Below, in pieces: positions 4,006-29,206 of a stretch of DNA of 29,907 nucleotides; positions within the stretch are counted from its first letter, which is position 1; the number at the start of each line of letters is the position of its first letter. The DNA comes from a virus. The stretch lies in IMG/VR virus record IMGVR_UViG_3300044825_001465, positions 1 to 29,907 of that record. One strand, written 5' to 3'. The position numbers were made by a program, and so were the translations under genes. The notes under the pieces are model-generated. The model saw only the letters and a list, made by a program, of their open reading frames with translations. It did not search any database and was not told the DNA's origin.

Positions 4006-5523
4006 ATGAGCATGAGTCCCGACCAGCTTCTCCTTTCCCTTGACCGCCTCCAGTCGCTCGCGGCGCGCGGCGGTGACGTTCAGATTGCTGAGCTTCGCCA
4101 GCTGCAGCACGCCCTCAACCAGAACATGCTGAAGTCGCATGCCGAGCTCCGCAAGGCGGGCGTCGGCTACCCGCTTCAGGGCATGCCGTTCGACAGCTCG
4201 ACCATTCCGGGCGGCTCGTACGCTCCGCTGGTTCCGCAGAGCATCCAGCCCATCATCGACAACGCGACCTTCACCGAGGACACCCTGGTGTTCTGGAAGA
4301 TGCTCGCGAAGCAGTCGGTGACCACGCCGGTGCTCGAGTGGGTCCGCCGGAAGAGCTACGGTGGTACCGCGACCTCGCCGTTCATCGCGGAAGGTGGCGT
4401 GCCGGCCATCACGCAGTCCGAGTTCGACCGCAACGTCGTCCGGATGAAGTACATGGCGGTCTTCCGTCAGGTCACGGACGTCCTCGCCAACACGCAGCTC
4501 CTTGGCAACGTGGGTCAGGCCCGCGCGCTTGAGGCCGCTGACGGCGCGGTCGAGCTCCTGTTCCGCCAGGAGAAGTTCCTCTTCCATGCTGACTCGAGCG
4601 TCAACCCGCTTGAGTACGATGGTCTCGTCGCCTCGATCGAGAAGGGTGCTCCCCAGAACGTCTTCGACGCTCAGGGCGCCACCATCTCGGGCCAGGAGCT
4701 GCAGGAGATCATCGGTCAGCTCGTGTCGGCGCCGAACTACGCGTCGCCCACGCACGTGCTGATGAGCCCGCGCCACTACGCGTGGTACCAGAACAGCCTG
4801 CTGCCCTTCAAGCGTGGTGACCTGGCCGTCAATGGCCCGCTCACGTTCAACACGCAGGGCATCTCGGTGGGTTGGTCGCGCGGCTCGGTCCCGCTGACCG
4901 AGGTCGTCCACATGGCGTGGGACGAGCACCCCATCATCCGTACGCAGGGCGATGGCCCTCCCGCGTCGGTTGGTATCACGGTTGCCAAGGTTCCTGCTAC
5001 CGTCGCTGGCAGCAAGTGGCGTGCGCAGGACGTCGCTGGCCTCGACTTCTACTACACGCTTGAGGCGGTCGGTGACCAGGGTGTGACCCGTCTTCCGATC
5101 TCGCTTGAGGTTGACTCGCTCGCCGCTGGCGGTGCTGTCGACATCACGCTCAACGACGACTCGGCGCCTGCTGCTGGTACCGGCTCCATCCGGTACTACA
5201 ACATCTTCCGCGCCGCCGTTCCGAACGGTGAGGCGGCTCCGACCGACCCGCGCAAGTTCTTCTTCGTTGGTCGTAAGGCGCGCAGCCTCGACGGGGACAC
5301 GGTCATCCGTGACCTCAACGAGCAGCGCCCGAACTCGGCGCCGATCATCATCATTCAGAACCGCCCGGACGTCCTTGAGTGGCGCGAGTTCCTCTCGACC
5401 ACCATGCGCCCCATCACCCTCTCGCGTACGACGCTCGAGCAGTTCCTGCTCATGATGTTCGGCGCCCTGAAGGTGTCGGTCCCGACCAAGATGTTCCTCA
5501 TCAAGAACGTCGGGTACGGTTGA
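4006..5523 (+). CDS. Major capsid protein (HK97 fold) with fibronectin-like insertion
   Basis: This 505-residue protein is the main shell subunit. Seen in order: a helical N-terminal arm of about 43 residues ending MLKS, a possible cleaved delta domain; then the E-loop/P-domain region with TFTEDTLVFWKMLAKQSVTT, SYGGTATSPFIAEGGVPA, KYMAVFRQVTDVLAN, and FRQEKFLFHADSSVNPLEYDG; and a C-terminal LLMMFGALKVSVP...FLIKNVGYG. These strings match the pattern of a myovirus capsid family I recall (F..EGG.p, lf.GDssl.p..fDGi, fGAL....P....ri.NV.Y). Between about residues 335 and 430 lies an inserted beta-sandwich-like segment (LDFYYTLEAVGDQGVTRLPI, IRYYNIFRA) resembling FN3/Ig-like surface domains. The start has an excellent GAGGTGAG ribosome site. 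A strong terminator follows. Class is confident; cleavage is inference. Confidence 0.93.
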   Translation: MSMSPDQLLLSLDRLQSLAARGGDVQIAELRQLQHALNQNMLKSHAELRKAGVGYPLQGMPFDSSTIPGGSYAPLVPQSIQPIIDNATFTEDTLVFWKMLAKQSVTTPVLEWVRRKSYGGTATSPFIAEGGVPAITQSEFDRNVVRMKYMAVFRQVTDVLANTQLLGNVGQARALEAADGAVELLFRQEKFLFHADSSVNPLEYDGLVASIEKGAPQNVFDAQGATISGQELQEIIGQLVSAPNYASPTHVLMSPRHYAWYQNSLLPFKRGDLAVNGPLTFNTQGISVGWSRGSVPLTEVVHMAWDEHPIIRTQGDGPPASVGITVAKVPATVAGSKWRAQDVAGLDFYYTLEAVGDQGVTRLPISLEVDSLAAGGAVDITLNDDSAPAAGTGSIRYYNIFRAAVPNGEAAPTDPRKFFFVGRKARSLDGDTVIRDLNEQRPNSAPIIIIQNRPDVLEWREFLSTTMRPITLSRTTLEQFLLMMFGALKVSVPTKMFLIKNVGYG

Positions 5524-5604: not shown

Positions 5605-6147
5605 ATGAAAGTCCGACACAAGAAGCTGCGCCGTGGCTCCATTGCTTTTACCTGCGGTGCGTTCCGCATTGGCCCCGATGGCCTGCTGTCGCCTGAGCCT
5701 ACAGAAGCGCAGTGGAAGCAGTTCGGTACTGCGCAGATGTACTTCGAGGTCGTGCGCGAGGGCGCCCTTGAGCGGCGCACTGACGTGACCCCGGAGGCAC
5801 TGGCAAACATCGCTGCTGCTGTCGCCGCCGCGCCTGCTCCCGAGTATGCCCCCGTGCCTATGCCTGCACCTGCGCCCGAGCCCGCACCTGCGCCCGAGCC
5901 CGAGCCTGAGTCCCAGGAGGAGGTCTTCTCCATGGACGATGACGAGGACGACGAGGGCGAGGAGGAAGAGGCCGATGGCTTCAGTGATGATGTCGATCCG
6001 AATGCGGACACGGCTGACGCCACCCGCTACTCTGGCATGTCTACTGAAGAGTTGCGTACGCTCTGTCGCGAGCGTGGGATTCGTACGGCGCGCGTGAACA
6101 AGGCCGACCTCATCTCGCTGCTCAACGCCTCTGACCTCGGAGTCTGA
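5605..6147 (+). CDS. Small head protein with acidic/Pro linker and SAP/HeH-like C-terminus
   Basis: The 180-residue protein has three visible parts. Residues 1-70 form a compact domain (RRGSIAFTCGAFRIGPDG, FEVVREGALERRTDV). Residues about 72-140 are an extended linker: a proline-rich APAPEP repeat, encoded by a perfect 18-base tandem duplication, followed by a run of Asp/Glu. Residues 145-178, MSTEELRTLCRERGIRTARV then NKADLISLL, match the helix-extension-helix pattern of SAP/HeH/LEM-type domains, which often bind DNA. Similar small proteins with C-terminal HeH domains occur beside capsid genes in several phages. By position it may sit at the head or head-tail junction. It starts after the capsid terminator with AAGAGG seven bases upstream; no promoter is obvious between terminator and start, so expression probably relies on read-through. 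The exact function is unknown. Confidence 0.75.
   Translation: MKVRHKKLRRGSIAFTCGAFRIGPDGLLSPEPTEAQWKQFGTAQMYFEVVREGALERRTDVTPEALANIAAAVAAAPAPEYAPVPMPAPAPEPAPAPEPEPESQEEVFSMDDDEDDEGEEEEADGFSDDVDPNADTADATRYSGMSTEELRTLCRERGIRTARVNKADLISLLNASDLGV
5866..5901 (+). repeat. Perfect tandem 18-bp repeat (two copies) coding APAPEP
   Basis: GCACCTGCGCCCGAGCCC occurs twice head to tail, at 5866-5883 and 5884-5901, and encodes part of the proline-rich linker of the 5605 gene. In-frame slippage here would change linker length without breaking the protein. Confidence 0.9.
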
Positions 6148-15920: not shown

Positions 15921-18900
15921 ATGCATCCGGACTCGCTCAAGCTCTTCCGCTACCGCTATGGTACCGCACCTGTCATGGAACTGCAGGACCGCCTTCAGGC
16001 GGCCTCCGTCATCAAGGACATCTCAGGTAAGGAAGACATCCAGCTGTCCATGCTAGGTTCGTTTGAGGAGCCGCAGACGGCGTTCACCCCAGGCGACTTC
16101 ATTGCGCTGAAGGACGACAAGGGCATCGCATGGAGCTGGGGCCGCGTGTCGGTAGTGCGCAGCACCATGAAGCGAGACCCCGGCGGAATGCTCACGCATG
16201 CGCCCTACGCAGTGACGGTGCAGGGTTGGTATGACTTCCTGACACGCTCGAAGGTGCACGTCATGACGACGTCGAACCGTCCGAGCGTGGGCACGCTGTT
16301 CAACTTCCCTGATTGGTCTGCGTTTGTCGGCGAACTGACCAAAATGTATGGTACCCCGGCGGGCCAGCAGTTGCAGTTCATGCTGCGCAAACTTCTGCGC
16401 ATTCGCCTGCCGCCTAGCTTGGGCGGGGGCTGGTTCCACGATGAGATTCCTGTCGTCTACGACCGCGCGACAGCACTGCGCTATGCCCCTGAGTTCGCGG
16501 ATATGGAGCCTGTAGAGTTCGGCAATCTCATGCCGCAACTCTCCGTCAACAACCTGCCGATTCGCTCGTCAGACATTGGTTCGCTGATTGCGAACATGTT
16601 CCTGTTCGAGACGTCCCTCGTCGAACTCATTCCGTACTTGTCGATCACCCCCGGAGATGTACCCGTACCCTCGACCAATCCCCCATCGCCCAACGCGCCA
16701 ACAGCCGCCGCATCGCAAAACCAAAGCTCGTCCGCGCCTCCTGCTAACAGCGGGCCATCAACACCTGTTGACACACGCATAGTGCCCGGATGGACCAAGC
16801 TGGGTAACATCTTGGGTGCACAGCCTGTGCTGGTCTACCGCATCAAGCCCTTCCGGGCAGAACCCTTGTATCGCGCAGCCGTTGCGCGCATTGGCTACCG
16901 CGCGGAGAACGCGGAGCAGGGTTACCTTGACCGTGACTTGTCGCTGTACGATTCCAAGTCTCGCGCACAACTCATTGCCTTACGCGCCGAAGCACGCGCG
17001 CAGACTACCACCAAGCTTGTTGATGATGGCTTGTTCAAGCAAGTGACTTTTGAAAAGTCGACCATCACCCCTCTTCCCTACGACCACATCATCAGTGTGT
17101 CGCGCCAACGCTCTGATGCAGACCGCCTCAACGCATCAAGCATCAACGCGGTGCCCCCGGCGCAGCCAGCCGGTCCCGGTGCCCAGATCACGGACGTCGA
17201 CTTCATCGGACTACCGGTCGCGATTGAGAACCAGATTGAGAACCATGGTCTTCGTCTCCGGTTCGCTCGGTGGAGCATGTATCCGGATGATACCAAGATG
17301 ACTGACCCTACAGTCTACATTTACTATCGCGCGGTCGCTGCGCAGGTGATGCAGTTCTACGAGAAGGCTCACCTGTACGAGACTGGCTCCATGCAACTCC
17401 ACTTCACGCACACCCTGCGCGCCACCGAGGACAACATTCTTGAGTTCTCGACGTACGACAAGTCCGTGCTCAACCTCGAGCCAGGGAACTGGTTCCGCAC
17501 ACCTATCCGTGGGCCAGAAGGACTCGCGCTAGGGCGTGCGCTCACTCCAAGCGCAGATGCGCCTGAGCCCGCGACACCAGACAAAAATCAACTCCAGCAT
17601 GGGCCAAAATCCGAGAGCTACTCCAACGATTACTTTGGGTACATCACCACAGTATCGCACAACATTCAGCGCATGGCCTCCGGTAATTTGGCGGCCAGCA
17701 GCCAGCTGAACTTCATTCGAGGCCACTTCGCTGATATGTGGGACGTGCTGCACGGCATCAACGTTCCGATGGCAGAGCAGGGTCAGCCCCCCAATGGCGC
17801 AGGCGGCGCCCAAGGGCAGTCTGTCGGTGGCGGCGGGGCCTGTGGACTGCGCCTAGCAGAGCCCGCTAATGCTCTCGACCCCATCACCTGCAGCGCCTAC
17901 CCCCTGTTCGAGGTGGCAGCTAGGCAGTTTAATCTTGGTGAGTTTCGCACAAACTGGGGTCCTGCCGCTGTAGTTCCGCCTCTGATGAACAACCCGTTCA
18001 GCACCGGTCCGACCGATAATTTTGCGCCAAACCTAGGGCAGAACGACTACAACAGAATCACCCAGACCTATATTACCCAACGTCCCCTGTGGCTCAGGTG
18101 CTGGTTCTTGGAAGCTATCTCCGTGATGCCAGGGAATGAGTATGCCAGCATTGCGCAGTTCATGACGACTTCGACATCTGCCTACAGTGCTGATCCTGCT
18201 ACAGCTGCGAATCACGCCAACCTTTGGGCCCTCGCCGCGTGTGCCTACGTCATTGAGAGCTACTGGCGCACCTACCCTGGCTACGAGAACGTGCACTTGC
18301 GCGTGCGCGCAATTCCTCGAGCCAAGGACGCCGGCTACCACCTGCTGTACGCAGCCATGGACTTCTACTTGGAGTACCCTGCAGACTTTGCAGGTGAGCA
18401 GGCCGGCGCGCTGCAGGTGTGGGCCTCACTGTACAAGTTGGCCAAAGAGGGGCGCATACCCTACGGCGGGCGCGGCCTTTACTTGAACGTCAACCCTGAG
18501 ACCGGCATCAAGGGTACCGCATTTTCCGAGGCAGGCTCCCCCAGCAAGTCGAACTGCCAGTATCCACCAGGGGGTTCTTCGTGGACCCACTACGACATAC
18601 GGGGCATGTGGGGTATTACCACCCGCAAAAACAGCCAAGGTTCGTTCCTACCTGGCTTCTTTACGTCATGGGTGGGCACTGACTGGAACGGCGACGGCTC
18701 TGACGAGATCACGCTCAGCAACTCGTTCAGTCCGCCTAAAAGCCGCACGCAGAACGGAGGCGTTGAGGACACTGCGGCATACACGTGGGCCAACGTCGCT
18801 GACTCCGACTTCAAGCTGCTTGAGGAGTACGTGTCTGGAACCAAGTCGACTCAGGCACCTGGCGTGGCTGCAGTCATGCGCGCGCGAAAGGCCCGCTCGG

Positions 18901-19763
18901 ACTATTTGGATGTAGAGAAAGCACGCGACCCCGTGCGCGCCGTTCTGCGCAGTTACTTTGAGTCCAACGGCACGAACGACAAGTGGCTGAAGCCGGTCAC
19001 GACGCGCGTCCCCAACATGTTTCAAGTCTTTGAGTTGGAGCAACTGCTCGGCGCAAGCCTTAATCCCATTACACCCTACATTGCGCCAGACAAAAAGAAC
19101 TTCAAGGCCAAGCTGTTCTTCGCTAAGGACATTGCCGGACAAATCATCAACGCTCCGGTCATCGTGTTCTTTGGCGGCGCGCGCGTTAATGGCCAATCCG
19201 CTGGTACCTACATGGAGACCTACGCGTCGTACCTCAAGGGACGCAACCATCTCGTCATCGCCGAGAACGACAAGGTGACCTACGGCGACGTCGAACCCTT
19301 TATCACCGAAGCGCAGTTTCACGCCGCAGGTCATCCCAGCACACTGTTCATCTTCTCGAACGGCGTTGTACCCACGCGCAGTTGGGTTGCAGCACGCGGT
19401 AATGTGGTACCAAACTCTGATTTCTCGGTCGTGTGTCTGGTTGACGCATTCCTAGGCGGTAATCCGGCCATACCCGTTGGGCAGCGCACGCGAGCGAACG
19501 AGATTACCGACACCTTCCTATCTGCGATGGGCACAGCACAGAGCCTCTACCGCTTCTTCTACACTGAGGTGTGGAACATGACGGGCAATGGCATGTATCA
19601 GCAGACCCGTGATCGCATCCTCGGTGGAGGGTCCTACACGGGTATGACCAATCTCTACCGTCAGCTCGTTCCCAAGGGCAACGCGACTACTGACATCGAG
19701 TGGCACATGGATGCAAACCGAGTCGCGATCCAGTATCTACTCGACAGCGGTCTCGCTAAGTGA
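15921..19763 (+). CDS. Giant baseplate hub protein with M15-like peptidase module
   Basis: It has 1280 residues from ATG 15921 (AGGT upstream); the frame is open to 15798, but that part shadows the tape measure end. Residues 1-615 look like a gp27/hub-type structural part (TPGDFIALKDDKGIAWSWGR, YAVTVQGWYDFL), interrupted by Pro/Ser/Asn-rich linkers near 245-285 and 540-568. A Gly-rich linker near 618-640 leads to a second half. There, GYHLLYAAMDFYLEY (H807, six residues, D814), IPYGGRGLYLNVNP and SSWTHYDIRG (H890, D892) match the H-x6-D ... HxD zinc-ligand order of M15-type peptidoglycan peptidases. Residues about 1078-1280 form another alpha/beta domain of unknown function. It follows the tape measure, where hub and tail-lysin genes lie. 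It probably cuts the cell wall during injection. Catalysis is unproven. Confidence 0.75.
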   Translation: MHPDSLKLFRYRYGTAPVMELQDRLQAASVIKDISGKEDIQLSMLGSFEEPQTAFTPGDFIALKDDKGIAWSWGRVSVVRSTMKRDPGGMLTHAPYAVTVQGWYDFLTRSKVHVMTTSNRPSVGTLFNFPDWSAFVGELTKMYGTPAGQQLQFMLRKLLRIRLPPSLGGGWFHDEIPVVYDRATALRYAPEFADMEPVEFGNLMPQLSVNNLPIRSSDIGSLIANMFLFETSLVELIPYLSITPGDVPVPSTNPPSPNAPTAAASQNQSSSAPPANSGPSTPVDTRIVPGWTKLGNILGAQPVLVYRIKPFRAEPLYRAAVARIGYRAENAEQGYLDRDLSLYDSKSRAQLIALRAEARAQTTTKLVDDGLFKQVTFEKSTITPLPYDHIISVSRQRSDADRLNASSINAVPPAQPAGPGAQITDVDFIGLPVAIENQIENHGLRLRFARWSMYPDDTKMTDPTVYIYYRAVAAQVMQFYEKAHLYETGSMQLHFTHTLRATEDNILEFSTYDKSVLNLEPGNWFRTPIRGPEGLALGRALTPSADAPEPATPDKNQLQHGPKSESYSNDYFGYITTVSHNIQRMASGNLAASSQLNFIRGHFADMWDVLHGINVPMAEQGQPPNGAGGAQGQSVGGGGACGLRLAEPANALDPITCSAYPLFEVAARQFNLGEFRTNWGPAAVVPPLMNNPFSTGPTDNFAPNLGQNDYNRITQTYITQRPLWLRCWFLEAISVMPGNEYASIAQFMTTSTSAYSADPATAANHANLWALAACAYVIESYWRTYPGYENVHLRVRAIPRAKDAGYHLLYAAMDFYLEYPADFAGEQAGALQVWASLYKLAKEGRIPYGGRGLYLNVNPETGIKGTAFSEAGSPSKSNCQYPPGGSSWTHYDIRGMWGITTRKNSQGSFLPGFFTSWVGTDWNGDGSDEITLSNSFSPPKSRTQNGGVEDTAAYTWANVADSDFKLLEEYVSGTKSTQAPGVAAVMRARKARSDYLDVEKARDPVRAVLRSYFESNGTNDKWLKPVTTRVPNMFQVFELEQLLGASLNPITPYIAPDKKNFKAKLFFAKDIAGQIINAPVIVFFGGARVNGQSAGTYMETYASYLKGRNHLVIAENDKVTYGDVEPFITEAQFHAAGHPSTLFIFSNGVVPTRSWVAARGNVVPNSDFSVVCLVDAFLGGNPAIPVGQRTRANEITDTFLSAMGTAQSLYRFFYTEVWNMTGNGMYQQTRDRILGGGSYTGMTNLYRQLVPKGNATTDIEWHMDANRVAIQYLLDSGLAK

Positions 19764-19770
19764 GGTACGC

Positions 19771-20628
19771 ATGAGCTCTGGTGTAAGCATCATGTACGCG
19801 TTCAACCAGAAGGTCACTGCCGACGGCCGCCGTCGTGTAGACCTTGTGGACAGATTCGGCAACATCACGCGCAGTGCCTACGTCATGAGTGGCGCAGGCC
19901 TGCCGTTGAACGTACCCCCAGCAAATGAGACTAACCCAAAGGACTACACCAGCTATCCTCAAGTCGTCGTGGGCATGATGGAGGGCGATGCCCTACCTGT
20001 TGTGCTCGGTGCCCTAGACACACCGGAGGTCTCGTACACGCCTGTGTCCGAAACCAATACAGGGTACGACGCCAAGGGATTCCTAGGTCCAAAGCTGAGC
20101 AATGACGCGGACGCAGACAGCGAGCTGAACTTCCGAGGCATGGAGGAAGCAGTCATCGCTGCGCCCAATGGTGGGCGCTTTATTCTGAAGCGCAATGGGC
20201 ACGCTGTTATCGCCGGCGTAGGCGTCAGCGTACAGATACCTGAGGGCTCGTACATGCGCATCTCCGCTGGCGGCGACAGCGAAGGGCGTGTGCCTCTGGT
20301 AGACCCATTGGTGGCCGTGATGAACGACATCATCGACACGGTCAACGAACTGCAGCAGGAGGTGACCGCCCTGCGCGCTACGCTGAGCAGCGGCGTGTCT
20401 ATCACGCACCCCGAGATAACCCTCTTGCCTATCACCGTGCCGCCCAAGCCCGACCCGGTGTATGTATTGGCCATGGTCACACCGCCTGTTGACCCAACTA
20501 ACGTAGTGTTCCTGAACGAGGTAGCACTACTGGATGTAGGTACTTCGTCGAGCGAGCCTCTCATCCCCCTTGACTCACTCACCATTGCCTCAGCCACACT
20601 GCGGGTCAGTTCAGCCACCGAGGTGTGA
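19771..20628 (+). CDS. Baseplate spike protein (gpV/gp5 OB-fold type)
   Basis: A 285-residue protein from ATG 19771 with GAGGT just upstream. The first 90 residues look like the OB-fold of central spike proteins: a basic VTADGRRRVDLVDRFGNITR, then YPQVVVGMMEGDALPVVLGA, matching the characteristic pattern of gpV and gp5 N-terminal domains (vG...Gd.PvvlG.l). Residues about 140-170 (GRFILKRNGHAVIAGVGVSV then IPEGSYMRISAGG) resemble a beta-helix stalk. Residues about 184-208 (MNDIIDTVNELQQEVTALRA) form a probable trimeric coiled coil. The Pro/Val-rich C-terminal 75 residues are beta-like, with no recognised tip domain. As a trimer it would sit below the hub and puncture the outer layer of the cell. 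It ends just before the next gene's start. Confidence 0.8.
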   Translation: MSSGVSIMYAFNQKVTADGRRRVDLVDRFGNITRSAYVMSGAGLPLNVPPANETNPKDYTSYPQVVVGMMEGDALPVVLGALDTPEVSYTPVSETNTGYDAKGFLGPKLSNDADADSELNFRGMEEAVIAAPNGGRFILKRNGHAVIAGVGVSVQIPEGSYMRISAGGDSEGRVPLVDPLVAVMNDIIDTVNELQQEVTALRATLSSGVSITHPEITLLPITVPPKPDPVYVLAMVTPPVDPTNVVFLNEVALLDVGTSSSEPLIPLDSLTIASATLRVSSATEV

Positions 20629-20630
20629 CG

Positions 20631-22760
20631 ATGAGTCTTTTGGACAGGCTAGCGGCTAAGGCTACTGAGGCAATCGACAGCGCCGTGACTGCGGTCACAA
20701 CCGCTGTCACCGGCGCCGTCGCGAGCCTGACGGAGGAAGCCAAGCGCCAAGCACGAGAAAAAGTTGAACAGAAAGTAAAGGACATCCTAGGTGACGCCGC
20801 AGGTGAGTTTGCGTCCGTCTTCGTGGAGGACGCCGCCAAGAACGGCGTCGACATTACAAACCCCAACGCACTTCTGACAGAGGCTGAGCGCCTCGCCAAA
20901 GAGAAGAAGGCAGCACTTGAAGCGGAAGCATCGTCCGCCGCCGATGCTGCAATTACTAAGGTCACTGCAGAGAAGGTTGCAAGACAGCTTGAGGTTGCAC
21001 GCAAAAACGCGGCGGCAGCCTACAAAGAAATCTACACTAGCACTGAATATAGCGACCCCTACTTTGAGGACCCTGAAAATCCTAAACTATCCAATGAGTA
21101 TCGCCTCACGCGCTACGAAGACTGGTCTGCAGCGAGCGACGAGAACGATAACAAGTCGGTCTCTGTCGACCTGCCGTTCGTTCACCGCATCACGATGCAG
21201 GCTCCCAACGCTGTATCGCGCACGCGCACCCTTGCAGGCGCTGTCTACGCGGAGCACGCCGGTTTCATCCAGCGCACGTTTGTGATTGAGGGGCGCTCGG
21301 GCGCGGTGTGGAACGCCGATGGTGCGGATCGACTCGCCATCTCTCGGTTCACGGCACTGCGCAACTTCTTGGAAGCGTACGGCAAAGAGCACGCGGCTAA
21401 CAAGAACGCGTTCTTTCGGTTCAAGAACTCGCGGCTTGTGTTGCGCGCTACGTTTGAATCCGAGGCTGTATTCTGCGATGTGACAAACTTCACTTATCGG
21501 CGCAGCACAGACACCAGTACGTACAGCTTTGAGTACAGTCTTACGATAGTCACGAACGGCTTTGTTGGCTCGGGTTCGCAGGCCGGCAGGCTGCTGGACA
21601 TTGGAAGTAAGACGACCCCCACGTGGATACCTGCCGACAACTTCTACCAGCCCAATCTGCTTTCAAGCAGAAACCCTGCAGCCTTCCGCATTCTGTTTGG
21701 AGGTATGCCCCGTGAAGCAGATACGGTTCGTAACTTCTTAAACTGGAATGAGTCGCGCAACCAACTAAGCACCCTGAGTTGCTCCGCCCTGCAAGACATC
21801 AGGTCCTCGGTCTCAGTTCTGAACTCCGCCCTCGATACCAGTGTGTGGACGTTCAACTCCACCATCAGTGACTTCACCGATTCCATTCGTTCGCGCGCAG
21901 AGACCAAGGCCGCCCTTGCTTGGGGCTCCCTTGGCCTTGACCTTGCGCACACTTTCAAGGGCCTCGGAGGCACGCCGTGTCCTGTGCCTGTGTGGTCAGA
22001 CCTGTACTACAATGCTGCGCCGTACGTGAACGCAGGTGCTGCTGCTATCGAGTACCTCAAGGATCAGTTCGGCACCACGCGCGGTACCGAGTACAGTTAC
22101 ACCATCACGAACACGCAGCCGGTGCGCACTGCGTTTGAGGCGCGCGCAACGACCAGTCCTACTCCGCCGTTCGCTGCCGTCAACCACTTCGTGACGGTCA
22201 ACGGAGCGGACGCCTACAGCATCGCCGCTGCGGCTTTAGGCGACATCAACCAGTACTGGCGCATCATTTCCCTGAACAACATGCGCGATGCCTACACACG
22301 CGCTGACGGCACGCCGCTGTCGCCAGGCAGTGCAGTGCTTGTGCCCAATGCTGCCGTACCGGCCAGTCGCGCCACTGATGTCCTAGGTACTGACCTGCTG
22401 CTCGTAAACGGCGACCTCATGCTCGTCGGCAACAACGACGTCATGCGCGTCAGCGGCTACGCCAACTACACCCAGAACCTGCTGAACCGCATGCGTACCC
22501 CGCGCGGCAGCAATCGGGTGTTCCCTAGGTACGGCTTGTCGTCCACTATCCACACGCGCTCTGACGCTACTGTTCCTGCCACGATCCGCACTGAGGTATC
22601 CAGCCAAGTCATGCAGGACTACCGCACGGAAGACGTGGGCAACATTCAGCTTGAGGTTCGTGCGGACACGGTCAAGGTCAGCATGGTGGTGACCGCCATC
22701 ACAACGCCTAAGCGCATCTTCACGTTCAACTATGACCTCAACTCGCAGGTGACCGCATGA
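20631..22760 (+). CDS. Baseplate fusion protein: helical region, beta domain, LysM-like, gp25-like
   Basis: 709 residues from ATG 20631 (AGGTG upstream; GTG 20625 is an alternative). Residues 1-130 are an Ala/Glu/Lys-rich amphipathic helix. Residues about 160-320 are a beta-rich structural domain (LPFVHRITMQAPNAVSRTRT, RFFKN-like FRFKNSRLVLRATF). Residues about 519-570 match a LysM-type fold: VTVNGADAYSIAAAALGDIN, QYWRIISLNNM, then LSPGSAVLVP. Residues about 587-709 match gp25/gpW wedge proteins: YTQNLLNRMRTPRGSNRVFP, RYGLSS, EDVGNIQLEV. In T4 the LysM-bearing gp53 and gp25 are separate wedge proteins; here the two modules appear in one chain. It probably joins baseplate wedges around the hub. 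The last four bases overlap the next gene (ATGA). The domain calls are from pattern; the first 320 residues are uncertain. Confidence 0.78.
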   Translation: MSLLDRLAAKATEAIDSAVTAVTTAVTGAVASLTEEAKRQAREKVEQKVKDILGDAAGEFASVFVEDAAKNGVDITNPNALLTEAERLAKEKKAALEAEASSAADAAITKVTAEKVARQLEVARKNAAAAYKEIYTSTEYSDPYFEDPENPKLSNEYRLTRYEDWSAASDENDNKSVSVDLPFVHRITMQAPNAVSRTRTLAGAVYAEHAGFIQRTFVIEGRSGAVWNADGADRLAISRFTALRNFLEAYGKEHAANKNAFFRFKNSRLVLRATFESEAVFCDVTNFTYRRSTDTSTYSFEYSLTIVTNGFVGSGSQAGRLLDIGSKTTPTWIPADNFYQPNLLSSRNPAAFRILFGGMPREADTVRNFLNWNESRNQLSTLSCSALQDIRSSVSVLNSALDTSVWTFNSTISDFTDSIRSRAETKAALAWGSLGLDLAHTFKGLGGTPCPVPVWSDLYYNAAPYVNAGAAAIEYLKDQFGTTRGTEYSYTITNTQPVRTAFEARATTSPTPPFAAVNHFVTVNGADAYSIAAAALGDINQYWRIISLNNMRDAYTRADGTPLSPGSAVLVPNAAVPASRATDVLGTDLLLVNGDLMLVGNNDVMRVSGYANYTQNLLNRMRTPRGSNRVFPRYGLSSTIHTRSDATVPATIRTEVSSQVMQDYRTEDVGNIQLEVRADTVKVSMVVTAITTPKRIFTFNYDLNSQVTA

Positions 22761-26057: not shown

Positions 26058-27587
26058 ATGACCTCACGCATTGGTGACAGGCCTAGGTTTCCGCTGCCCA
26101 ACCAGCGGTTCGACAAGGGCGATGCCGAGAACATCGCGCGCTACTACGAAGAGATCATCGCCCGCTTTACGGGCAGCATCTACGGACAGGCTTGGGGTTT
26201 CGTATCTGCACCTATGTTTGAAGTGGTCTCCGTTACTGACCCCTTCACAGGCACGTTAAACTACATTCGTCCTAAGCGCTGCGCGCTGCTGTACTCCGTG
26301 CCGGCAAGCCCTGTATCTGGTGGTACTGCGCCGTTGAACACTACGGGGCGCGACGAGGGTCCGTGGGCTGCTACTATCGTTCAATTCGATCCTGCTAGGC
26401 CAGGGCAACCCGTTCAATCGCTCCTGACGTTACCCGCGTTCGATGCTCTGCAGCGCCCTTGGATTCTGTTCAGGCGTCAAGAGACCAACACTGCCACCGG
26501 CAACAAGGCCTACTGGGATACCGCGTCCAACACCGAAGAGGTCGGTGCTGCCCCCTTGCAGCGCACGGAGTACGTCGAGTTCAGGCTGAGTGCCGCGTAC
26601 AGCCCCAACGACCGCACCGATGGTTGGTACCGCTGCGCTTACATTGATTCATGGGGCACGCCCGCTTCAGCGGCCACGCCTGTCATCGTGCCTGTCCATT
26701 GGATGGACAGCCAGTACTACGCCGACACGTTGCCGCCGACGCAGGGCACACGCGTAGCTAGTGCGCTCGCGCACCCGGAAGTCACGTCGCCTAGCACCAC
26801 AGGCTTCAGTCCTCAGACAGAGATGCCGGAGTTGGCGAAACTGCTGCACTGGATTGTGGGGAAACTGGGTCAGCACTACAGCGCGACAGTGCAACAAGTA
26901 TATGCACAGAACGCTGGTGTGTACAATTTGAAAGAAGGCGCCTTCGTTAACTCTAGTGCTACTGAAGGTTGGCTTGGTCGCCCTGTTAGAGGACTACTGG
27001 AGATTGAGTCCTACCTAAATACCTTGGAGACGATTCGCCTTCCGGAATTAGACGCAGACATTATTGCCAACGAAAATCTGTGGGATAAGTACACCCAAAC
27101 TCCACGCCTACTGCACACGCTGTATGTGAAGCCGACGAACGCGCCTACGGGTTTCACCGAGTGGCTCAACTACACATTCACGGTAACGTCGCTAACCACT
27201 ACACCCAGCGCGCCTGTCAGTGCCTCCAACTCTTTTTCACCGACGCTCGTACCCTATAGCGGGTCCGCCGTGGGCGCCTCTGAGCTCGGTTACCGCATCG
27301 CCACTGCAGTGCAGGGCGGTAATTCCGTATTGAATGTCGACCTGATAGCTGGTTCTAACTTTGTGGTGACCTCACTGGAGATCAGCTTCCAAGCGGACGA
27401 GGCTGCATTTGGCGGTGGATGGCCCACCCCGGCCCCAGAGCTTACTTTGAAGTATAGCACCACCGCTCCTGCCTCGATGCCGCCAAGCTCTTACGTGCGT
27501 GGCACAACCTTGGTCCGCACAACCGAAGAGTTTGGTGCCCTAGATCGGCGCGCTATCGTAATCAATGTCTATGGGAGGAACGTCTGA
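26058..27587 (+). CDS. Putative tail fibre / baseplate appendage protein, paralogue B
   Basis: A 509-residue paralogue of the preceding gene. I start it at ATG 26058, preceded by CAGGAG, because MTSRIGDRPRFPL then aligns exactly with the paralogue's N-terminus; the frame is open further upstream without similarity. By my count 37 of the first 47 residues are identical. The central block PWILFRRQE, GNKAYWDTASNTEE, APLQRTEYVEFRLS, IVPVHWMDS and GKLGQHYS is also shared. The C-terminal half differs and has its own beta-rich sequence (STATEGWLGRP-like, NSFSPTLVPYSGSAVGASEL), but both proteins end in a short INVYGR/HIYGR-type motif. The last base overlaps the next start. It may form a heteromeric appendage with paralogue A or provide a second receptor specificity. 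The family is unrecognised. Confidence 0.65.
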   Translation: MTSRIGDRPRFPLPNQRFDKGDAENIARYYEEIIARFTGSIYGQAWGFVSAPMFEVVSVTDPFTGTLNYIRPKRCALLYSVPASPVSGGTAPLNTTGRDEGPWAATIVQFDPARPGQPVQSLLTLPAFDALQRPWILFRRQETNTATGNKAYWDTASNTEEVGAAPLQRTEYVEFRLSAAYSPNDRTDGWYRCAYIDSWGTPASAATPVIVPVHWMDSQYYADTLPPTQGTRVASALAHPEVTSPSTTGFSPQTEMPELAKLLHWIVGKLGQHYSATVQQVYAQNAGVYNLKEGAFVNSSATEGWLGRPVRGLLEIESYLNTLETIRLPELDADIIANENLWDKYTQTPRLLHTLYVKPTNAPTGFTEWLNYTFTVTSLTTTPSAPVSASNSFSPTLVPYSGSAVGASELGYRIATAVQGGNSVLNVDLIAGSNFVVTSLEISFQADEAAFGGGWPTPAPELTLKYSTTAPASMPPSSYVRGTTLVRTTEEFGALDRRAIVINVYGRNV

Positions 27588-29206
27588 TGCCCGCTCCAGT
27601 ACCTAACGTCACCGGCTCCCCCATTGAGCTCGACGTAATCCCCGCTGGAGGCACGCAGCCTCTCAGTTGTACGCTGGTTCCAAGCGCCACTTACCTTTGG
27701 CGCTTGGTCGAGAAGCCACTGGACAGCAGCGCGCAACTCCTCAACGCCACGACACCGACGCCGACCTTGTCGGGCATTGACAAGACGGGCACGTACATCG
27801 TGTTCCTGCAGGTGACTACCAGCGAAGGCAGCTCGCATCCCGAGCCGTTCCCTACGCAGTCGCCTGTGCCCCCCTACAACTTCACTGCGCCCCTCGTGTC
27901 TGCGTTCGGCATCGTGCGCATCCGCGAAGCGTCCGGCTTGTTCAAGCCTGGACGCGGCGAGTACGGCTGGTTCGAGAAGGGCCTGTGGCCCCTGTTCGAC
28001 AAGGTGGCGGAGGGCTCCTCGTTCATCCGGTACAACGACCCGACGCGTACGCTGACCGCGAACGCCATCGTGCCTGACCTTACGGTCGCACCGAACGACA
28101 GCATCGTTGCTGTCGCAGGTCTGAACGTGCGCAACGACACGACGCAGGCGGAGCACGAGCTCTACAGCCCGGCGCACGACAAGATCAACGTGCTGTCCAA
28201 CCTCGCGGTCACGGGCAAGGACCTGACGGTTTCCGGTGGTGTACTCAAGGCAGACAATGTGCGTGATGCTAGTGGGGGCAATCTAGCTCTAGAGGCTAAC
28301 GCGAGCATGACGTTTATCGCTGGGGACAATATCAACTTCGATGCCGACGACGTGGTCGTTCAAGTAAATGGAGGTATCGACCTTACCGCGGAAACGATTG
28401 TAGCGCTCGCTGCGGGATCAGGCGACGTGCAGATCTCGGCTGGCGACGACATCACGCTCACAGCCCAAGATGACATCTCGCTTTCCGCTGCCGATGACAT
28501 CGCAATTACCGCCTCCGATGACATCACCATCAACGCCACAGGCGCGAATGGCAACCTCAACCTGTTTGCTTATGGCACCGGCGGCGACATTTGGGTGCAG
28601 GCGGGTACTGAAGTCAAACTCGAAACAACCCGACCGTTGAGCTCTATTTTGCTCAAGCCAGTCGTGGACACGACCACTGACAAGCCATTGCGTGCACCAG
28701 GCTTGGCCCTGTGCCGAACTGTGTATGCGCAGTCCGCCGTGATTTTTGGCCCCGGACCCTTGTTCACGAGCCCACCCACGTACAGCCGCTATGAGCTTGG
28801 CTCTGAACTCGACACTCACATCATGGTTGTGGCCTATGCGCCCAAGGATGCGGACATTGAGCTTGTTCTTACCCGTGATGTAGGTGGCGACGTGACGACT
28901 CTCGCTACGCTCAACAGTGGCGTGTTGGATAATGCGGCATACTTCTTGTTCAACATCCGATGCCGCACCAAGATCACTAAGCTGGGCCACATTGTTACGC
29001 AGCTTGAGCATGACCGCGTGGGTCCTCTGACCAGCTTTGACGTACCTTCTACACCCAGCAGCCCGGTCAGGACTTACACGCTCCGCAACGAGGACTTCAA
29101 CAACAAGCTGGTCTCCTTCCAAGTCAGCACGAACATCGCGCTGGCGCAGTACTCCGCCCAGATGACCTGCGTGCTGTACAACCCCCACGACCAGGACGTG
29201 CTCTGA
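27587..29206 (+). CDS. Beta-helix tail protein with PKD-like N-terminus
   Basis: 539 residues. Residues about 1-90 look like a PKD/Ig-type domain (TYLWRLVEKPLDSSAQLLNA, then GIDKTGTYIVFLQV). A block FGIVRIREASGLFKPG follows. Residues about 230-317 are built of eight-residue repeats, clearest as GDDITLTA, QDDISLSA, ADDIAITA, SDDITINA, with hydrophobics at alternating positions and Ala at the end. This matches the octad spacing of the triple-stranded beta-helix of T4 gp5 and related spikes. The C-terminal 200 residues are beta-rich (LGSELDTHIMVVAYAPKDAD, NIRCRTKITKLG). It probably trimerises into a needle or shaft in the fibre region. It could be a fibre, a spike or a baseplate tip; position favours a fibre-associated role. 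Confidence 0.65.
   Translation: MPAPVPNVTGSPIELDVIPAGGTQPLSCTLVPSATYLWRLVEKPLDSSAQLLNATTPTPTLSGIDKTGTYIVFLQVTTSEGSSHPEPFPTQSPVPPYNFTAPLVSAFGIVRIREASGLFKPGRGEYGWFEKGLWPLFDKVAEGSSFIRYNDPTRTLTANAIVPDLTVAPNDSIVAVAGLNVRNDTTQAEHELYSPAHDKINVLSNLAVTGKDLTVSGGVLKADNVRDASGGNLALEANASMTFIAGDNINFDADDVVVQVNGGIDLTAETIVALAAGSGDVQISAGDDITLTAQDDISLSAADDIAITASDDITINATGANGNLNLFAYGTGGDIWVQAGTEVKLETTRPLSSILLKPVVDTTTDKPLRAPGLALCRTVYAQSAVIFGPGPLFTSPPTYSRYELGSELDTHIMVVAYAPKDADIELVLTRDVGGDVTTLATLNSGVLDNAAYFLFNIRCRTKITKLGHIVTQLEHDRVGPLTSFDVPSTPSSPVRTYTLRNEDFNNKLVSFQVSTNIALAQYSAQMTCVLYNPHDQDVL
28442..28537 (+). repeat. Four clearest tandem 24-bp (octapeptide) repeats
   Basis: Codons for GDDITLTA, QDDISLSA, ADDIAITA and SDDITINA run in register at 28442, 28466, 28490 and 28514, each 24 bases. 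Looser octads extend upstream to about 28274. Synonymous changes between units show this is a protein-level repeat rather than a recent DNA duplication. Confidence 0.85.

Follow-up and report, generated by a model that had tools for sequence, protein, structure and literature searches.

Lytic domains fused to the hub or spike of a phage tail are exemplified by gp5 of phage T4. Among baseplate and needle proteins, endopeptidase and hydrolase domains have been called common (PMC11948020). Two known chains bear directly on the tail hub examined in this article. The spike of Ochrobactrum phage vB_OspM_OC (QIG65729) combines Gp5_OB, Peptidase_M15_3 and Phage_lysozyme2 in one gp5-like chain and resembles this hub in carrying an M15 domain inside a central baseplate chain, beside a second lytic domain; however, its M15_3 domain is a clear Pfam match (5.7e-13) and the carrier is a gp5 OB spike, of another family than the hub studied here. 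Tal (gp59) of Staphylococcus phage 80alpha likewise joins a gp27-like N-terminal hub to a hydrolase-like C-terminal domain (PMC7048315), although it belongs to a siphophage and has a GDSL/SGNH esterase-like domain in place of M15.

Among the M15 enzymes themselves, MepK (YcbK) of E. coli (Peptidase_M15_2 / DUF882) agrees with the domain described below in the order and identity of H-x6-D, GGxGxY and HxD, and its YHxxxxAMDF string is a near match; in contrast to that domain, MepK is a free-standing protein of 182 aa with canonical SGYR and HxxG strings and without an insertion of ~35 residues before HxD. Peptidoglycan zymograms have been run with the M15_3 enzyme of phage Jorvik, a free-standing protein that was judged lytic (PMC10589892), and metal binding by the SxHxxGxAxD motif is documented for phage enzymes of the M15/VanY type (PMC5977269). 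The closest tails are those of the PHB04-like myophages (PHB04, Touem01, Dolphis and ST4), in which capsid, sheath and hub are related to those described here and the tail genes follow the same order; unlike the present hub, theirs measure about 500-520 aa and are devoid of any extension, a lytic transglycosylase being encoded towards the end of the gene in tape-measure position.

The DNA analysed, referred to as the window, is a 29.9-kb virus fragment that encodes portal, protease, major head protein, sheath, baseplate wedge and related proteins, and its source is an uncultured phage with a contractile tail. The tail genes are arranged as sheath, tube, (chaperone), a long 896-aa tape-measure-position gene, a 1280-aa protein, a spike-position gene, sheath initiator and wedge J, which is the gene order of Bordetella phage PHB04 and its kin. 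The features of the 1280-aa chain and of the gene that follows it are these:

15921..19763, + strand: hub gene P0001, 1280 aa, an open reading frame between the 896-aa tape-measure-position gene and the spike-position gene; homologue P0002, 43% identity
15921..17780, + strand: hub core, residues 1-620, common to the short hub P0008 of the relative L017 (three-way alignment; PHB04-type hub profile match)
17784..17849, + strand: Gly/Gln-rich stretch, residues 622-643, read from the sequence and poorly aligned between homologues
18069..18710, + strand: M15-like peptidase domain, residues 717-930, 47% identical to the corresponding domain of the relative L015 and aligned by profile to the M15 set A6
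19143..19760, + strand: C-terminal alpha/beta domain, residues 1075-1280, 30% identical to L015; AlphaFold pLDDT 57, Foldseek match in BFVD
19771..20628, + strand: spike-position gene, 3' of the hub, its start picked by alignment to relatives, in the position of the PHB04 spike gene

Other genes of the window were also annotated. A small protein encoded immediately 3' of the head protein gene (5605-6147, +) carries a C-terminal SAP-like motif slightly under the Pfam cut-off. Beyond the spike-position gene, a 711-aa protein (20625-22760, +) resembles sheath initiators of the gp25 type in its last ~110 residues (E 2.8e-4 for PF10934, E 2e-16 for a PHROG baseplate family). Its first ~520 residues, otherwise unexplained, may stem from fusion with the tube initiator, for which PHB04 has a gene of its own. 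A 539-aa protein (27587-29206, +) matches DUF2345, the needle-like C-terminal part of VgrG (E 9e-12), and is additional to the spike-position gene.

The assignment of the 1280-aa chain as the tail hub, made in the preliminary description, is well supported because both its placement and its profile lead to hubs. The placement between tape measure and spike is shared with PHB04, Dolphis, ST4 and L017. The core (residues 1-620) was aligned with hub-position proteins of two uncultured relatives (alignment A3, 48% and 37% identity), L018 being left out as no hub is readable 3' of its sheath; compared by hhalign with the hubs of PHB04-like phages (A7), which are themselves hubs by position, the A3 profile scored 38.6 against a best of 26.7 in 100 shuffles. 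A sequence search with the hub against PDB found no solved hub. What the window hub has beyond the short L017 hub is confined to the C-terminal ~650 aa, and the Gly/Gln-rich residues 622-643 would probably act as a flexible linker joining the core to the enzymes.

Within this extension, residues 717-930 carry the order of ligands typical of M15 peptidases, with the following elements:

18309..18320, + strand: A797-x-x-R800, counterpart of S-x-x-R (SGYR); S713-x-x-R716 in P0002, register by eye
18339..18362, + strand: H807-x6-D814 (YHLLYAAMD), predicted zinc ligands one and two, which hhalign places on SxHxxGxAxD; SNHNNGSAID in P0002
18465..18482, + strand: GGRGLY, residues 849-854, the M15 GGxGxY block, invariant in both hubs and aligned to GGVGYY/GGIGxY of M15
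18585..18605, + strand: T889-H890-Y-D892-I-R-G895, third predicted ligand and HxD block, identical in P0002; second colinear hhalign match, to FVHIDTR

The strings from which the M15 reading had been proposed (H807, D814, GGRGLY and H890) all occur at the residue numbers originally given in the 1280-aa frame (15921-19763, +), the codons being 18339-18341 for H807, 18360-18362 for D814, 18480-18482 for Y854 (the end of GGRGLY), 18588-18590 for H890 and 18594-18596 for D892. The M15 order, H-x6-D followed by HxD, is likewise confirmed (H807, D814, H890-x-D892) and recurs in P0002. As also pointed out at the outset, the SGYR and SxHxxGxAxD strings are altered: the window reads GYHLLYAAMD with Ser and Gly replaced, the Gly of HxxG having become Y810, and the Ser of SxxR is A797, in a register that was set by eye since MAFFT put gaps into the stretch. 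The domain keeps R800, H807, A812, D814, H890 and D892. The spacing from GGxGxY to HxD is about 35 residues, compared with 6 in MepK.

The homologue P0002 is encoded in L015 (contig 3300043772_003212) and is 43% identical to the window hub over the chain and 47% within the M15-like domain. At the matching place it reads ASVLRKDSNHNNGSAIDFYL, that is, S-x-x-R and then a complete S-x-H-x-x-G-x-A-x-D (SNHNNGSAID); the counterparts of the window residues are S713-x-x-R716, H721, D728 and H803-x-D805, and the strings GGRGLYLN and SSWTHYDIRG are identical between both hubs. Since P0002 keeps every ligand and has the canonical motif, the M15 signature can be regarded as real and conserved; the key residues are present in both proteins and the boundaries of the domain are defined. 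L015 lies on the same contig as L004, and between this contig and the window (4006-5523, 15921-19763) identity is 92% for the major head protein, 65% for the sheath and only 43% for the hub, a difference that suggests fast change or recombination in the tail module.

The altered motif raises the alternative that the domain is an M15-derived pseudo-enzyme, with the metal site kept and a role in peptidoglycan binding or as a purely structural part of the hub. In its favor, A797 and Y810 stand where the M15 set has invariant or nearly invariant residues, and a second possible hydrolase domain located downstream in the hub could be the active one. However, the three ligands, D892, R800 and GGxGxY have all been retained at 47% identity and the canonical motif is complete in the homologue, so that loss of activity is considered improbable.

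The bare pattern H-x6-D ... HxD is on its own a weak signature, being found in 1407 of 20,000 shuffles of the hub protein (7%); a stricter pattern (an upstream Arg, Ala two before the Asp, GxGxY and then HxD) occurred in one of 20,000. This frequency, together with the lack of a Pfam or PDB match and an uninformative AlphaFold model, could be taken to mean that the signature arose by coincidence in a phage-specific structural domain unrelated to M15. Pfam M15 models gave no match reaching the gathering score for P0001 or P0002, a six-frame search with PF08291 and PF05951 was empty, and neither the hub nor the domain drew a relevant sequence match from Pfam, PHROGs or PDB. When viral contigs were searched with the hub, the M15-like domain, the hub core and the GGRGLYLNV DNA pattern, and in two genome scans, the domain turned up only in L015 and the core only in L017; tblastn against named phages found nothing. 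Two sequences of the M15-like domain were found in all, the window hub and P0002; the AlphaFold model built from these two reached a pLDDT of 37.9, and the Foldseek matches of that poor model, none of them to M15, were disregarded.

Profile comparison, on the other hand, speaks against coincidence. Set A6 aligns MepK with eleven M15 domains from phages. Once both sides had been trimmed to the domain, hhalign gave two matches: H807...GGRGLY fell on the H-x6-D...GGxGxY block of A6 and, in matching order, SSWTHYDIR fell on FVHIDTR; these colinear matches sum to 42.3, compared with 32.6 for the best of 500 column shuffles, none of which was as good. An untrimmed comparison with A6 was uninformative, the alignment having fallen on a tail of one template. 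Because trimming came after this failure, a scan of the whole hub serves as a check: stretches of fixed length, taken step by step along the entire hub pair, were compared with the trimmed M15 set and gave a single peak, at the M15-like domain. In view of these results and of the canonical motif in P0002, coincidence appears very improbable, and the original proposal of a divergent M15-like zinc peptidase domain is supported by that motif and by an in-register profile alignment above all nulls.

A comparison of related tails provides a context for the function of this domain. The hub of L017 consists of the core without the extension; the next gene, which overlaps it by four bases and lies between hub and spike, encodes an Amidase_2 (L017 17857-18846; Pfam E 2.9e-8). 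The tape-measure-position gene encodes an SLT transglycosylase in PHB04, Touem01 and Dolphis, an M23 peptidase in Thermus phage Lalka27b and, by annotation, a lytic transglycosylase in ST4, and Pfam detected no SLT/M23-type domain in that of the window. Because the short L017 hub is paired with a separate Amidase_2 gene, the wall enzyme is seen to vary in class and carrier among these tails; the simplest reading is that each retains one such enzyme, which in the window would be the M15-like domain on the hub. A target other than peptidoglycan, e.g. tail proteins processed during assembly, is conceivable in that M15-like active sites cleave short peptides, but hardly credible given that the relatives have wall enzymes (amidase, SLT, M23) elsewhere in the tail module instead.

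The window hub is therefore likely, judging from sequence comparison, to bear a divergent M15-type (MepK/Peptidase_M15_3-like) zinc peptidase that cuts peptidoglycan locally at the site of DNA entry. The points to be set against an M15 assignment are the null Pfam and PDB sequence searches, the pLDDT of 37.9 with no M15 match by Foldseek, the A797 and Y810 substitutions, the longer spacing before HxD and the small number of domain sequences found (two). Homology, the position in the tail and the replacement with other wall enzymes in relatives suggest an M15 fold, zinc binding, peptidoglycan as substrate and a role at entry. According to this model, residues 1-620 would form the hub, followed by the Gly-rich linker and by the divergent M15-type zinc peptidase at residues ~717-930, in which H807, D814 and H890 are the predicted Zn2+ binders and D892 and R800 the predicted helpers in catalysis and substrate binding. 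Upon tail contraction the domain, located at the tail tip, would make local cuts in the peptide stems or cross-links of peptidoglycan, and the small hole made in the bacterial wall would allow the tail tube to pass and the DNA to enter.

A second domain in C-terminal position after the M15-like domain was less expected than the M15-like domain itself. Residues 1075-1280 possibly form an alpha/beta hydrolase with S1146, D1175 and H1262, residues conserved in the two sequences available (window and L015). Foldseek comparison of the model (pLDDT 57) matched an uncharacterised phage protein in BFVD (A0A6J5PV24, E 2.9e-4) and, in PDB, alpha/beta hydrolases without significance (best E 0.029). That a single hub chain carries two enzymes degrading the wall or envelope, a divergent M15 with a relaxed substrate motif and an alpha/beta hydrolase belonging to a phage family as yet undescribed, is put forward as a doubtful proposal; if true, a single hub trimer would cleave, one after the other, peptide stems and ester bonds in the envelope.

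The M15 enzyme family and the idea of an enzyme fused to a hub are already known. The preliminary description considered the fusion of a peptidase to the hub unusual, a view that does not hold given the OC spike with its M15_3 and lysozyme domains, the hub-esterase fusion of 80alpha Tal and the frequency of such domains in baseplates. New in this hub family is a divergent M15-like domain that Pfam does not detect and that has a longer insertion ahead of HxD; mechanistically the domain is ordinary, if divergent. The finding leaves the understanding of phage entry unchanged and is of use to annotators and to those who seek new muralytic domains, as it adds to the phage tail lysins a predicted wall-cutting enzyme that family searches miss. 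It also presents one group of related tails in which the lytic enzyme occurs as a hub extension, as a separate gene or as a tape-measure domain, with the enzyme class varying among them.
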